In this document: positions 1 to 49,198 of the stretch, in pieces
Layout of the letters: each line of letters opens with the position of its first letter
How positions within the stretch are numbered: position 1 is the stretch's first letter
From: Methanothrix sp.
GTDB lineage: Archaea; Halobacteriota; Methanosarcinia; Methanotrichales; Methanotrichaceae
Reading direction: 5' to 3'
Length of the DNA: 64,000 bases
NCBI GenBank assembly: GCA_029907715.1
Contig: JARYLI010000002.1
Coordinates: 124,001-188,000 of the forward strand
Position numbers and translations under genes: made by a program
Notes under the pieces: generated by a model
Databases searched by the model: none
What the model saw: the letters and a program-made list of their open reading frames with translations, nothing else
What the model was told of the DNA's origin: nothing

Positions 1-240
1 TCTCCCCATAGTGGAGAGTTTGATTCAAATCGACCGCCTGTGGACTTGAGTCCTGATAGCAGTACTGAGGCAAGATAAGACTATTATAGTATTACGCATA
101 AGTTGATATAATATCACATGTCACATAAAATCATCTATGAAGTATGACATATCCAGTAGATTTTAAATGGATTTACATGAAGTGGCGCAAAGAACTATAA
201 GTCCAATTCTACAGATGTCGATCTTAACCGATGACGCATG
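1..240 (+). mobile_element. 189-bp-type element (family R2), left end cut by the window, carrying a nested R1
   Basis: Positions 15-240 match the right part of the complete element at 23925-24113. The only large difference is an extra 113 bases here, which is exactly the 111-bp R1 element plus a duplicated TA. The right end matches the other copy, with the terminal sequence CTTAACCGATGACGCATG finishing at 240. The left terminal repeat would lie about 60 bases outside the window. It sits 14 bases beyond the stop codon of the CoA-transferase gene, so the insertion falls just downstream of that convergent gene end. No protein is encoded. Confidence 0.85.
87..197 (+). mobile_element. 111-bp MITE-like element, family R1, copy 1
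   Basis: Three copies of exactly 111 bp occur in the window (also 23702-23812 and 42303-42413). This one interrupts an R2 element between duplicated TA dinucleotides (85-86 and 198-199). The uninterrupted R2 copy at 24061-24080 shows the empty site with a single TA. The ends are imperfect inverted repeats starting TAGT, and an internal hairpin is formed by ATGTCA (118-123) and TGACAT (145-150). No coding capacity is present. TA duplication is the hallmark of IS630/Tc1-mariner-type transposition, so mobilisation in trans by such an enzyme is inferred. Confidence 0.88.
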
Positions 241-254
241 AAAACGCTCCGAGT

Positions 255-2132
255 TCAGGCCCTGAACTTGAGCGTCATATAGTATATCCCACCGTCGTTG
301 ACCTTCTCCACCTCGAACCCCATCTTCTCGAAAAGCCTGAAAACGCGATTGTTCTCTGCCAGAACCTCTGCTGTGAACCCGAGAAGGCCGCTCTTCCTCG
401 CAAGCTGTGTCAGGTACGATAAAAGCTCGCCACCCACACCCTGGTTCTGGTAATCATCTCTGACAGCGAGCGCGATATCTGCGGTGTATTTATCTCTGTT
501 GACCTCATACTGGCCTATGCCGATCACCACGTCCCTCTCCTTTCCGGCGAGCGTGGCGAGTATCACCATTTTGTTTGTGTAGTCGATCATGGTGAGCTTC
601 TGTAGCAGATCTCTTGGGATCTCCCTTCTCATCGATATGAACCTCTGGTACCTGCTCTCCTCTGAGAGTGAATAGAAGAAGTCCTTCAGCAGTGGCTCAT
701 CGCTGATCCTCACAGGGCGCATCAGAATCTCCAGACCGGTTTTGGTGGTTCTGTGAACCTCGAGGTGCTCCGGATAGATTCCCTGCCAGTCCGGAAGAAC
801 GATCTGGTCCCTGTAGAGCATGTTCATCCGTTTCGCCTCTTCTATCAGCCACGCCCTGAACTTCGGATGCGCCACAGCTATCAGGGCCATCGCCCTCTCC
901 CGCAGGTTTCTGCCATGAAGGTAAGCTATGCCGTGCTCTGTCACCACGTATCTGATATCACCTCTTGTCAGCGTCACACCAGCGCAGCTCCTCAGACATG
1001 GCACAATTCTGGACACGCTCCCGTCCTTTGCTGTGGATGGGAGGGCGAGAATGGTTTTGCCGCCCGGAGCCATGGCCGCACCCCTCATGAAGTCTGCCTG
1101 GCCGCCTATTCCGCTGTACAGTGTTCCTCCAAGAGACTCAGCTGTGGCCTGGCCTGTCAGGTCGATCTCGAGCGCGCTGTTTATCGCGACCATGTTTCTC
1201 TGTTTTGCTATGATCAGGGGATTGTTTGTGTAATCGATCTGCCTGAACTCTATATCCGGGTTCCCGTCGAGATACCTGTACGTCTCTCTTCTGGCCATGC
1301 AGAAAGTGGCTACGGTCTTCCCGGTATCGAGGGTTTTCATGCTGTTGTCGACAGCGCCGCTCTTCATGAGCTCAACGATGCCATCTGTGAGGAGCTCTGT
1401 GTGAACCCCTAGATGCTTTTTGTCGCGGAGGTTCGAAAGAACAGCATTTGGTATGCTTCCGTAGCCGACCTGTATCGTGGACCCGTCCTCCACGATTCTC
1501 GCAACATACTTTCCTATCTGCTGCGCAAGCTCAGTCGGCACGCTCTCCACATACTCCAGGAGCGGCTCCTCATGGTATACAACGTAATCAACATCCTCTA
1601 TGTTGATGATGGTGTCCCCGTGTACATACGGCATCTGAGGATTGACCTGGACAGCAACGCTGGATGCGTTCTCGATCACAGCCTTTATTATGTCAACACT
1701 TATACCGAGGCTCATATCTCCGTTCTCGTCCGGCGGTGTGGTCTGTATGAGAGCCATATCGACATTTATCGTTCCATTTCTGAACAGCTCTGGAAGCGCT
1801 GATAAAAATATAGGGGTGTAGTCCGCGTCAGCGCGGTTGATCGGCTCGCGCGTGCTCTCCCCTATGAAGAATGAATCGAGGCGGAAGTTCAGCTTGAACT
1901 TCTCATCTGTGTATGGCGCGACACCCAGAGTCGAGACGTGGATGACCTCCGCGTCGAAGAACGCCGTGGGATACCTGCTTACGTAATCGATCAGAGAGCG
2001 CACAAGATGCTGCGGCTCTGCGCAGCCGGTGCCGATGAATATCCTGTCGCCGGGATGTATATTTCTGAATATGTTCCTCTCTGGAGCAAACCTATCCGGC
2101 CACCTGCTCCGCATCTCATCCAGCCCCATCAT
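255..2132 (-). CDS. acetyl-CoA hydrolase/CoA-transferase fused to a GNAT acetyltransferase
   Basis: The N-terminal two thirds match the family-1 CoA transferase/acetyl-CoA hydrolase fold (4-hydroxybutyrate or acetate CoA-transferase type), including a glycine-rich segment SGIGGQADFMRGA. The last ~165 residues form a GNAT N-acetyltransferase domain with the acetyl-CoA loop QNQGVGGELL. The frame is open up to 2216, but a TATA-like box at about 2184-2189 lies inside that extension. The ATG at 2132 (protein starting MMGLDEM, 625 residues) is therefore the better start. It is separated from the upstream P-type ATPase gene by ~300 bases and is probably transcribed alone. The transferase family moves CoA between acids such as acetate and acyl-CoAs; the GNAT target is unknown. 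The fusion architecture is known in databases, but its role in a methanogen is not established. Confidence 0.85.
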   Translation of the reverse strand: MMGLDEMRSRWPDRFAPERNIFRNIHPGDRIFIGTGCAEPQHLVRSLIDYVSRYPTAFFDAEVIHVSTLGVAPYTDEKFKLNFRLDSFFIGESTREPINRADADYTPIFLSALPELFRNGTINVDMALIQTTPPDENGDMSLGISVDIIKAVIENASSVAVQVNPQMPYVHGDTIINIEDVDYVVYHEEPLLEYVESVPTELAQQIGKYVARIVEDGSTIQVGYGSIPNAVLSNLRDKKHLGVHTELLTDGIVELMKSGAVDNSMKTLDTGKTVATFCMARRETYRYLDGNPDIEFRQIDYTNNPLIIAKQRNMVAINSALEIDLTGQATAESLGGTLYSGIGGQADFMRGAAMAPGGKTILALPSTAKDGSVSRIVPCLRSCAGVTLTRGDIRYVVTEHGIAYLHGRNLRERAMALIAVAHPKFRAWLIEEAKRMNMLYRDQIVLPDWQGIYPEHLEVHRTTKTGLEILMRPVRISDEPLLKDFFYSLSEESRYQRFISMRREIPRDLLQKLTMIDYTNKMVILATLAGKERDVVIGIGQYEVNRDKYTADIALAVRDDYQNQGVGGELLSYLTQLARKSGLLGFTAEVLAENNRVFRLFEKMGFEVEKVNDGGIYYMTLKFRA

Positions 2133-2437
2133 CGGAATGCCCCACTCTGCAAAGCCCAACAGCACAACCTGTCCTTTTAAAGTATATAATTCTGTCGTTG
2201 CTTGCAGAAAATGCACTGCAAAAAGAGAAAATGTAATGAAATATAATGATATTATGATTACGCTCCAGCTTCTGCGATCTGGCAGATCTGTTATGGTTTC
2301 AGAGAAGATCTCAAGCCAGTCCGATTGAGCTCAAAAGAGACCATCTTGGCTCTGCACAGTCCCTCTAAAAGTCATGGCTGATGACCTGTAGACCATCTCA
2401 AAAACAAACCGATTTGAGAGCCGATTTTGAGCTCGCT
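2133..2437. other. spacer between the ATPase and CoA-transferase genes
   Basis: About 305 bases hold the 3' flank of the P-type ATPase gene and the promoter region of the CoA-transferase gene. A minus-strand TATA-like element (TATATA at 2184-2189, followed by an A/T-rich TTTAAAAGG stretch) is the only signal recognised. No small gene with a good ribosome binding site was seen. Confidence 0.5.
2180..2192 (-). promoter_or_regulatory. TATA box of the CoA-transferase/GNAT gene
   Basis: On the minus strand the sequence reads ATTATATACTTTAAAAGG. A start of transcription ~25 bases downstream would fall near 2160, upstream of the ATG at 2132 and downstream of the longer open frame's first codon. This decides the translation start. 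Confidence 0.55.
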
Positions 2438-5140
2438 TCAGCCAACCGCGATCCTGCGGCGCACCATCTTGTACGCCTCCATTGTGATCAGTATTGTAAG
2501 AGCAAGCGCCAGAAGCCTGGCCCAGTGCTCTGGTGAGACGGGCCCGATATTCAGCACTCTGCTGAGCCAGGGACTGTACATGGCGATTATGTGGATCATC
2601 TGTGCTCCAAGAGTGCCAAAAAACAGAATGGGATTTCTCAACGGGCTCATGCTGAATGCGGAGCGCAGCTCAGATCTGCTGTTGAAGACCTGTATGTTTT
2701 CGAACAGCACCATGAGCAGCATGGTGCTGTTTCTCGCCTCATCCAGACTCGAGCCGGTGCTCAGCAGGTATCTGTAGAGCATGAATGCAATTCCACCCAT
2801 GACAATGGATGAGAGCAGTATCCGCTCGATCATTATCCTGTTGAATATTCCCTCTCTCTGAGGCCTTGGCGGTCTCCTCATCTCATCCCCCTCAGCCGGC
2901 TCCAAGGCGAGGCCTATGTGCTGTATGCCGTTTGTCACAAGGTTTAGCCAGAGGAGCTGAACGGCCAGCAGTGGGAGGGGCACTGCTGCGAAGAGGGCGA
3001 GAAAGAAGAGCACAATCTCCGCAGCCCCTGTGGATACCAGGAGGAATATGACCTTGCGCACGTTGCTGTATGCGACCCTGCCCTCCTCCACGCCTGCGAC
3101 GATCGATGCGAAGTTGTCGTCTGTTATGACAAGCTCTGCGCTCTCCTTTGCGATATCGGTCCCGCTCTTTCCCATGGCTACGCCAACGTGGGCGGCACGC
3201 ATGGCAGGCGCATCGTTTGCGCCATCGCCTGTTACAGCAACAGTATGCCCCAGGCGCATGAGAGACTGGATTATGTCCAGCTTCTGTCTGGGCTCAACCC
3301 TTGCAAAGACCCTCGCCCTCCGAACAAGCTCGTCAAAGGCATCATTTCCGATAAGTTCCGCCTTTTTGAGCTCAGGACCGGTTATCACCTCCTCCATGCT
3401 CCGGGCCATCCCGAGCTCACGGGCGATGGCCAGCGCGGTGATCGGGTGGTCCCCGGTGACCATCGCAACCTGTATGCCAGCCTTTCTGCATCTGGCCACC
3501 GCTGGCTTTGCTTCTGGCCTCAGGGGATCGATCATCCCGATAAGTCCAAGGAATGTGAGACCTCTGAGCCGCTTATCTGAGAATTCATCATCGCTTTCAA
3601 GCGGACCATCTGCCACCGCAAGAACCCTGTAGCCGTTGTTCGCCATCTCAGATGCGCATCTCTCGATCGCATCTCTGTCCAGCGGAGCCTCGCCATCGAT
3701 TGTGACCACCCTGTCGCACATATCCAGCAACGTCTCGGGAGCGCCCTTGACGAATGCAATAAGCCTCCCGTCCATCCTGTTCAGAGTGGCTGCGAACTTC
3801 CTCTCAGATGCAAATGGTATCTGTGCGACGAGGGGGTACTTCGGGGCGATGTCCGCCTGCCTGACACCCGCCTTGTGCGCCATGACGAGAAGTGCGACGT
3901 CGACGGTATCTCCGTGGTGGACCCAGCGACCATCGCGCATCCCGAAGAACGCCTCGTTGCAGAGAGCCGCTGCAGTAACAATTCTATTTATGAGAAACTC
4001 CTCATCCTCGGTGGGCTTTCCATGGGCTGTTCTGATCTCCCCCTCAGGAGATATGCCCTCCCCTGTCACCTCCATGTACCCATGGCCCGGTACCGCTATG
4101 AGCCGTGCCGTCAGCTCGTTCATCGTGAGTGTGCCGGTTTTGTCAGAGGCTATGAAGTCACAGGAGCCGAGGGTCTCCACGGCAATCATACGGCGCACGA
4201 TGACGTTACGCCTAGCCATGCGATTGACTGCTACCGCAAGCACCACTGTTAGCGCCACAGGCAGACCCTCGGGAATCGCGGAGACCGCAAGGGCCACAGA
4301 TTGAACGAAGACCTGCGCTGCATCCACACCCCTTCTGACCTCGATGGCGATTATCAGCATAACAGCGATCAGAACCGCCTTCGCTATATTGCCAGAGAAC
4401 ACCTCCATTCTTCTTGTCAAAGGCGGCTTCGCAGACTCCACATCTGTCAGGGATCCGGCCAGCCTTCCCAGCTCGGTATCTCTGCCGGTCGCCACCACCA
4501 CGCCTCTGCCACGCCCGCGGGTCACTATGGTTCCGGCGAAGGCCATGTTGATGCGATCGCCCAGGGATGCGTTCCATTTCAGCACGGCAGAGGCATCTTT
4601 TGATACAGGGGTTGATTCTCCTGTTAGAAGGGACTCGTCCACCTCGAGCGCGTGCGTTTCAAGCAGTCTGAGATCTGCGGGCACCTTCATGCCCTCCTCG
4701 ATGAGGACGATGTCTCCAGGCACGCAATCCTCTGCATCCACCTCGAAGCTCTCGCCCTCTCTGACAACACGTGCATACGTCCTGACCAGATCTCTGAGAG
4801 ACTCGATGTTCCGCTCGGCTGAATACTCCTGGGCTGTTCCGATGATCGCGTTGATCAGCAGCACGGCGAGGATGAATATGGCATCTGTCATTTTCTCGAG
4901 TATGAACGAGACCGCAGCGGCTGCCAGCAGCACATAGATCAGGGGGCTCAGAAACTGACGCAGAAAAAGCATCTGTATGCTCGGAGGCTTCGCTCTCGGG
5001 AGCGTGTTCCTGCCGAAGCGCACGAGTCGCTCAGTTGCCTCCTCCCGGCTGAGACCGGTTACAGAGGTGTTCAGCTCATGAAGTACCTCATCTACATTTC
5101 TGGAATGCGGCTGCAGCTCTGCTATCTGAATAACCCCCAC
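2438..5140 (-). CDS. cation-transporting P-type ATPase (P2, Ca2+-ATPase-like)
   Basis: A 900-residue P-type ATPase of usual P2 length. The actuator motif TGES is at residues 173-176, PEGLP of membrane helix 4 at 290-294, and the phosphorylation motif DKTGTLT at 333-339 (Asp333). KGAPE, MVTGDH and GDGANDAPA follow in order, with paired hydrophobic segments before and after them as expected. It pumps cations across the cell membrane using ATP. The start leads straight into a P2-type N-terminal domain. In helix 6 the motif reads NLVTNG where Ca2+ pumps of the SERCA/PMR1 group have NLVTDG, so the transported ion should not be assumed to be Ca2+. A hairpin (5179-5197) lies just upstream. It appears to be a single-gene unit. 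Confidence 0.92.
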   Translation of the reverse strand: MGVIQIAELQPHSRNVDEVLHELNTSVTGLSREEATERLVRFGRNTLPRAKPPSIQMLFLRQFLSPLIYVLLAAAAVSFILEKMTDAIFILAVLLINAIIGTAQEYSAERNIESLRDLVRTYARVVREGESFEVDAEDCVPGDIVLIEEGMKVPADLRLLETHALEVDESLLTGESTPVSKDASAVLKWNASLGDRINMAFAGTIVTRGRGRGVVVATGRDTELGRLAGSLTDVESAKPPLTRRMEVFSGNIAKAVLIAVMLIIAIEVRRGVDAAQVFVQSVALAVSAIPEGLPVALTVVLAVAVNRMARRNVIVRRMIAVETLGSCDFIASDKTGTLTMNELTARLIAVPGHGYMEVTGEGISPEGEIRTAHGKPTEDEEFLINRIVTAAALCNEAFFGMRDGRWVHHGDTVDVALLVMAHKAGVRQADIAPKYPLVAQIPFASERKFAATLNRMDGRLIAFVKGAPETLLDMCDRVVTIDGEAPLDRDAIERCASEMANNGYRVLAVADGPLESDDEFSDKRLRGLTFLGLIGMIDPLRPEAKPAVARCRKAGIQVAMVTGDHPITALAIARELGMARSMEEVITGPELKKAELIGNDAFDELVRRARVFARVEPRQKLDIIQSLMRLGHTVAVTGDGANDAPAMRAAHVGVAMGKSGTDIAKESAELVITDDNFASIVAGVEEGRVAYSNVRKVIFLLVSTGAAEIVLFFLALFAAVPLPLLAVQLLWLNLVTNGIQHIGLALEPAEGDEMRRPPRPQREGIFNRIMIERILLSSIVMGGIAFMLYRYLLSTGSSLDEARNSTMLLMVLFENIQVFNSRSELRSAFSMSPLRNPILFFGTLGAQMIHIIAMYSPWLSRVLNIGPVSPEHWARLLALALTILITMEAYKMVRRRIAVG

Positions 5141-23701: not shown

Positions 23702-23812
23702 TAGTATTCCGCATAAGTTGATATGATATCGCATGTCACATAAAATCATCTATGAAGTACGACATATCCAGTAGCTTTTAAACAGATTTACATGAAGTGA
23801 TGCAAAGGACTA
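23702..23812 (+). mobile_element. 111-bp MITE-like element, family R1, copy 2
   Basis: This copy has the same length and ~90% of the sequence of copy 1, beginning TAGTATTCCGCATAAG and ending GCAAAGGACTA. A TA follows the right end, but the left flank reads AT, so one side of the duplication has changed. It lies 112 bases upstream of the R2 element. Confidence 0.88.
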
Positions 23813-23869: not shown

Positions 23870-24190
23870 CGCTCTCATGTGTTTGCAACATATGGATCGC
23901 GCAATTTGGTTGCTGAACGCACTTCATTGGTCATCGGTTAAGGATTTTCTGTAAATATATTGACCATGAAATTTGACAAATTGTGATCACGCCAGATTGG
24001 AGAGTCTGATTCAAATCGACCACCTGTGGACTTGAGTCCTGATAGCAGTACTGATGCGGGATAAGACTATTAAGTCCAATTCTACACATGTCGATCTTAA
24101 CCGATGACGCATGGAACGCACTTATTCATTCACCAAGAATGCACAGGAGGACCGGTGCTTCTACGGGAAAGTTATCATATGGATAAAGCG
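23870..24190 (+). repeat. structured dispersed repeat HR, copy E, interrupted by an R2 element
   Basis: The left part (CGCTCTCAT...GGTTGCTGAACGCACTT, 23870-23924) and the right part (ATTCATTC...GTTATCATATGGATAAAGCG, ending at 24190) join into a normal but diverged HR repeat once the 189-bp insert and one 10-bp duplication are removed. This leaves about 122 bp. It is the only copy not between convergent genes. Confidence 0.72.
23925..24113 (+). mobile_element. complete 189-bp non-autonomous element, family R2
   Basis: The terminal inverted repeats are 18 bp: CATTGGTCATCGGTTAAG at the left and the complement of CATGCGTCATCGGTTAAG at the right, with 16 of 18 matching. The flanking 10-bp direct repeat GAACGCACTT (23915-23924 and 24114-24123) is a target duplication inside HR copy E. 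No protein is encoded. A second copy forms the start of the window. A 10-bp duplication is compatible with some IS4-group transposases, which is a tentative match only. Confidence 0.88.
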
Positions 24191-42302: not shown

Positions 42303-42413
42303 CAGTCCTTTGCGTCACTTCATGTAAAAGCATTTAAAATCTACTGGATATGTCATACTTCACAGATGATTTTATGTAACATGTAATATTATATCAATTT
42401 ATGCAAAATATTA
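42303..42413 (-). mobile_element. 111-bp MITE-like element, family R1, copy 3
   Basis: An inverted copy with the same exact length. TA flanks both ends (42301-42302 and 42414-42415), consistent with the duplication. It lies in the ~425-base divergent spacer between spt5 and the zinc-ribbon gene, a region otherwise without genes. Confidence 0.88.
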
Positions 42414-49100: not shown

Positions 49101-49198
49101 TGCCGGGGGCGGGATTCGAGCCCGCGACTTCCAGATGACCCAGGCGCCTGTGGCTTACCCTATGAGTCTGGCGCCCTAACCAGCTAGGCCACCCCGGC
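49101..49198 (-). tRNA. elongator tRNA-Met (CAT) with a 24-base intron
   Basis: On the minus strand it has acceptor GCCGGGG / CCCCGGC with discriminator A, T-arm GCGGG-CTCGAAT-CCCGC and anticodon stem CCAGA / TCTGG. Removing 49137-49160 (24 bases after position 37) leaves the loop CTCATAA with anticodon CAT. The junction forms a bulge-helix-bulge with central helix CTCA/TGGG and bulges TA^G and TC^A. CCA is not encoded. Introns in elongator tRNA-Met are common in archaea. Confidence 0.93.

Follow-up and report, generated by a model that had tools for sequence, protein, structure and literature searches.

One MITE lies inside another at the start of the window (the whole 64,000-nucleotide stretch of Methanothrix DNA analysed here, G000:C2:124001-188000, where G000 denotes the organism's own genome, a 2,006,954-bp (2.0 Mb) assembly in 55 contigs). 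The inner element, R1, is a MITE of the archaeal IS630 type – a new element of a kind already known – and the outer one, R2, is a MITE unrelated to R1. We consider it highly probable that R1 is moved by an IS630 transposase, that R2 jumped to this locus and R1 then entered an R2, most likely here, and that the R2 site that R1 occupies has been used repeatedly. The features on which this account draws are collected in Table 1.

The nested arrangement is apparent from the comparison of two R2 copies of the window, one occupied by R1 and one empty. When the sequence on the two sides of the insert (15-86 and 200-240) is joined, it yields 113 bases, of which 107 are identical to 24001-24113; in BLAST searches against the same segment the two sides gave 91% identity over 81 bp (E 4e-28) and 96% over 48 bp (E 3e-16), a match across the insert that is far beyond chance. 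The surplus of the occupied copy is likewise 113 bases, that is, the 111 bp of R1 plus one TA: R1 is bordered by TA on both sides, while the empty copy has a single TA within 24067-24080 (CTATTAAGTCCAAT). The sequence-only reading had described precisely this relationship, an insert of 113 bases made of R1 and a duplicated TA, with the single TA of the empty target retained in the 24061-24080 region, and its coordinates are correct. The range that it gave for R2 was too short, as the left end of this copy lies 61 bases before the start of the window.

Table 1. Coordinates of R1, R2 and their target duplications, in window positions
Feature	Position	Strand	Remarks
R1, MITE, 111 bp, TAGTATTACG...CAAAGAACTA, without ORF, IS630-type terminus TA/TAGT	87..197	+	43 same-ended copies in own genome; left end matches exact end of IS630 elements, best in locus
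TA target duplication of R1, left	85..86	.	
TA target duplication of R1, right	198..199	.	
R2 MITE split by R1	1..240	+	Left end 61 bases before window; R2 plus R1 = G000:C2:123940-124240
10-bp R2 target duplication AAAACGCTCC, right copy	241..250	.	Left copy directly before R2 left end, outside window; single in congener G005 (AAAACGCTCT)
R2 copy without R1, 189 bp, CATTGGTCATCGGTTAAG...CTTAACCGATGACGCATG	23925..24113	+	Empty TTAA site inside 24067-24080
Empty R2 copy, left 10-bp target duplication GAACGCACTT	23915..23924	.	
Empty R2 copy, right 10-bp target duplication GAACGCACTT	24114..24123	.	
Second R1 copy of window	23702..23812	+	91%; TA retained on the right, lost on the left (CAT)
Third R1 copy of window	42303..42413	-	90%; within other repeat family

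R1 is a multicopy element with fixed ends. Copy counts were obtained by sequence searches of the genome and of fetched stretches; there are 43 R1 matches in the own genome, a few of them partial. We compared 43 essentially complete copies together with their flanks: nearly all are 110-112 bp long and end in TAGTAT...GACTA or close variants, and 35 of the 43 have TA at both sides. The earlier proposal that R1 is a discrete unit inserting at TA thus holds, and copies with other ends, which might have spoken against it, are rare in this set. Target choice shows a strong bias towards TTAA, which is found at 17 of the 35 clean targets whereas 2.8% of all TA sites of the window are of this type (binomial p 1e-17). 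Uninterrupted relatives spanning the insertion site were found for 18 R1 copies, and empty R1 sites are also present in congeners. R1 accordingly has the attributes of a MITE: it is short (111 bp), multicopy (about 43 copies) and lacks coding capacity, it has target-site duplications and empty sites, and its terminal inverted repeats (TAGT...ACTA, with further imperfect pairing) are present, if short and weak. Repeat-like sequence flanks 23 of the 43 copies; since the comparison set is enriched for repeats, this figure is no test of a preference of R1 for other elements. Among the 60 genomes searched, R1 is present in five, all of them Methanothrix (the own genome, G001, G002, G004 and G005), with none in the congener G003, and the R1 core had no exact match in the viral contigs searched.

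A high copy number and an apparently intergenic location, with none of the 28 copies tested lying within an ORF of at least 120 aa, could also be expected if R1 were not a transposon but a conserved repeat with a regulatory role or a conserved functional RNA. We consider such an identity very unlikely: an Rfam search of the window matched nothing but a tRNA (49101-49198), R1 folds no better than its shuffled versions (z -0.43), which also led us to reject a hairpin reading of R1, and an RNA or regulatory repeat does not account for TA duplications, empty orthologous sites and insertion into other repeats.

The link to IS630 comes from the ends of R1. The congener G004 (taken to be Methanothrix sp. 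SKW87 because locus L152 is identical) carries an intact, TA-flanked IS630 element of 1110 bp with an open transposase frame, assigned to IS630 by NCBIfam (E 1.3e-56) and to DDE_3 by Pfam; the ends of this element are TAGTCTTACGCTAAACTTAA and TAGTTATCCGCATAACTCTG. Aligned with its left end, the left 45 bp of R1 score 41.5, while 500 shuffles gave a mean of 11.8 and a maximum of 28.5. When the R1 left end was scanned over whole loci, in five of the six IS630 loci from Methanothrix the best match coincided exactly with the IS end, with up to 18 of 22 bases matching (a single end was available in L164, L153, L096, L109 and L110). The right end of R1 matches IS630 ends weakly, so that it is by the left end that R1 agrees with autonomous IS630 elements; TATAGT termini also occur in IS630 relatives of many other organisms. 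G004 combines a high R1 copy number (about 40 matches) with its intact IS630, yet R2 was not found there.

In the own genome, a draft assembly of 55 contigs, we found no matching IS630 transposase in intact form, and an intact copy may be hidden by the draft state of the assembly. What the genome does contain is a C-terminal relic, at G000:C6, of the IS that is intact in G004 (65% identity at the protein level across 111 residues), together with a more distant IS630 at G000:C7 that is split into two frames; we rejected the latter as the partner of R1, as its ends do not match. Pattern searches of the own genome for R1 ends on a larger element gave additional hits, for the most part isolated matches or R1 copies that have diverged, and none that pointed to an autonomous element. 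An IS630-derived MITE usually has an intact partner transposase in its own genome, but such partners can be lost, and archaeal MITEs often share just the ends with their partner, generally fewer than 20 bases (PMC3852290). The IS630 transposase of ISY100 acts by cut and paste almost only at TA, with duplication of the TA (PMC2170065). We infer that R1, a non-autonomous 111-bp MITE, would be moved in trans, by cut and paste, by an IS630 (Tc1/mariner-type) transposase, and would insert at TA with a strong preference for TTAA, duplicating the TA.

R2 is 189 bp long, has inverted ends CATTGGTCATCGGTTAAG / CATGCGTCATCGGTTAAG and generates 10-bp target duplications: the copy split by R1 is flanked on both sides by AAAACGCTCC and the empty copy of the window by GAACGCACTT. 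We collected 46 R2 copies or parts of copies in the own genome; G005 yielded a handful and G002 a single copy. Neither an R2 transposase nor a larger element bounded by R2 ends was found; paired R2 terminal repeats lie about 165-300 bp apart, with one pair at about 540 bp that belongs to a copy with three inserts.

How did the two elements come together at the window locus? The orthologous spacer lacks both R2 and R1 in all five congeners, and in G005, the closest of these, AAAACGCTCT is present once at the orthologous site where, in the own genome, AAAACGCTCC flanks R2 on either side. R2 has therefore jumped to this locus, and R1 into R2. An R1 insert shared by the R2 copies of all strains would have contradicted this order; three R2 copies of G005 and one of G002 instead continue through the R1 site without R1. 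The sequence-only reading went further, holding it proven that the movement of R1 postdates the arrival of this R2 copy. While the entry of R1 into an R2 whose empty form persists is well founded, the timing is likely rather than proven, because two other R2 copies, in L003 (G000:C3:58570; the right part of R2 is missing) and L024 (G000:C24:10078), likewise have R1, inserted at this very TA and facing the same way.

Such a pattern could arise if R1 had entered some R2 once and the R2 transposase had then moved the composite of the two to a number of loci, this one among them, with no R1 movement taking place here. For the pair formed by the window copy and L003 a shared origin is indeed compatible with the R1 tree (p 0.99) and borderline in the R2 tree (p 0.083). 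For all three copies, however, a single origin is rejected both for the R1s (R1 tree, p-AU 1e-4) and for the R2 backbones (R2 tree, p-AU 0.025), the groups used in these tests having been picked by shared site and not by the trees. As both trees reject a single origin, this TA of R2 was hit at least twice. Furthermore, L035, the R2 copy most closely related to the occupied one of the window, has no R1, which makes insertion of R1 in place the simplest reading and leaves transport of a ready-made composite to the window improbable. The opposite course of events, in which the ancestral R2 held R1 and precise excision, one TA included, produced the empty copies, draws on the fact that IS630-type elements do excise (PMC2170065), but it is hardly credible here: 30 of the 38 near-complete R2 copies of the own genome have no insert, the R2 copies of G005 and G002 are likewise free of R1 at the site, and the R1s of the three occupied copies belong to different subfamilies. 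It is therefore likely that R2 was already at this locus when R1 inserted into it. In the sequence of events that we favour, R2 would have jumped, in this lineage, into the spacer that adjoins the gene at 255-2216, R1 would then have inserted at the TATTAAG site of an R2, most likely at the window locus itself, and the TATTAAG site of R2 would have been used more than once independently.

Recurrence at a site is seen beyond R2. A second repeat carries R1 at one and the same site twice (L015 and L028), and the two R1s do not group together (p-AU 5e-6). At the G002 site orthologous to L011, R1 occupies the same TA and points the other way. At the G005 site orthologous to L002, R1 lies about 6 bp away, also in the opposite orientation, so that the own genome and G005 each provide the empty site for the other's R1 (both according to the alignment as read). 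In the R2 consensus there are no more than 13 TA dinucleotides and three TTAA, so that target bias alone should lead to some recurrence. A bolder proposal is that R1 insertion is close to site-specific, with the same TTAA of particular repeats and spacers being picked repeatedly by the transposase; other MITEs would then serve as standing landing pads, and the nests would result from repeated targeting and not from chance. We put this forward as a speculation that is rather less probable than its negation.

Several other nests were observed along the way. The R2 copy of L024 (G000:C24:8578-11688, locus positions 1223-1786) contains three inserts: a repeat at about position 70 of R2, R1 at the TTAA site, and, directly adjoining R1, a third element, R3, with an 8-bp duplication. 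R3 is about 124 bp long, has the ends CGCTCTTAT and produces an 8-bp duplication; it occupies the same AAGTCCAA in several R2 copies, in one orientation or the other (L058, L074, L075, L077, L078 and L024), which suggests that AAGTCCAA of R2 is a hot target for R3. In L070 (G000:C2:96500-98500) an R1 copy is split by a repeat of some 122 bp that resembles R3 and seems to be flanked by an 8-bp duplication. Finally, L096 (G000:C6), at 1773-3039, holds a Mutator/IS256-type transposase gene that is broken into two ORFs, separated by repeat-like sequence.

R1 has counterparts in several known systems. Plant Stowaway-type MITEs are non-autonomous, target TA and have a Tc1/mariner-type mobiliser, and R1 is alike in these respects, while it differs in its archaeal host and in its short and imperfect terminal repeats. 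As compared to IS630/Tc1-mariner insertion sequences, studied in vitro with ISY100 (PMC2170065), R1 shares the TA target and the TA duplication, and a related transposase with similar ends exists in a congener, although R1 has no transposase of its own. An 89-bp IS630 MITE linked to ISMma9 is present in 5 copies in Methanosarcina mazei (PMC3852290). Like it, R1 is short, multicopy and without an ORF, and sharing only the ends with the partner IS is typical of archaeal MITEs; unlike it, R1 is 111 bp long, has about 43 copies, shows a recognisable TA duplication and resides in Methanothrix, the comparison of the two resting on these descriptive features. R1 and R2 document MITE activity in Methanothrix cleanly, sites with and without an element being available both within one genome and between species. 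Because independent insertions can strike the same base, a shared insertion site is unsafe evidence of common descent for such elements.
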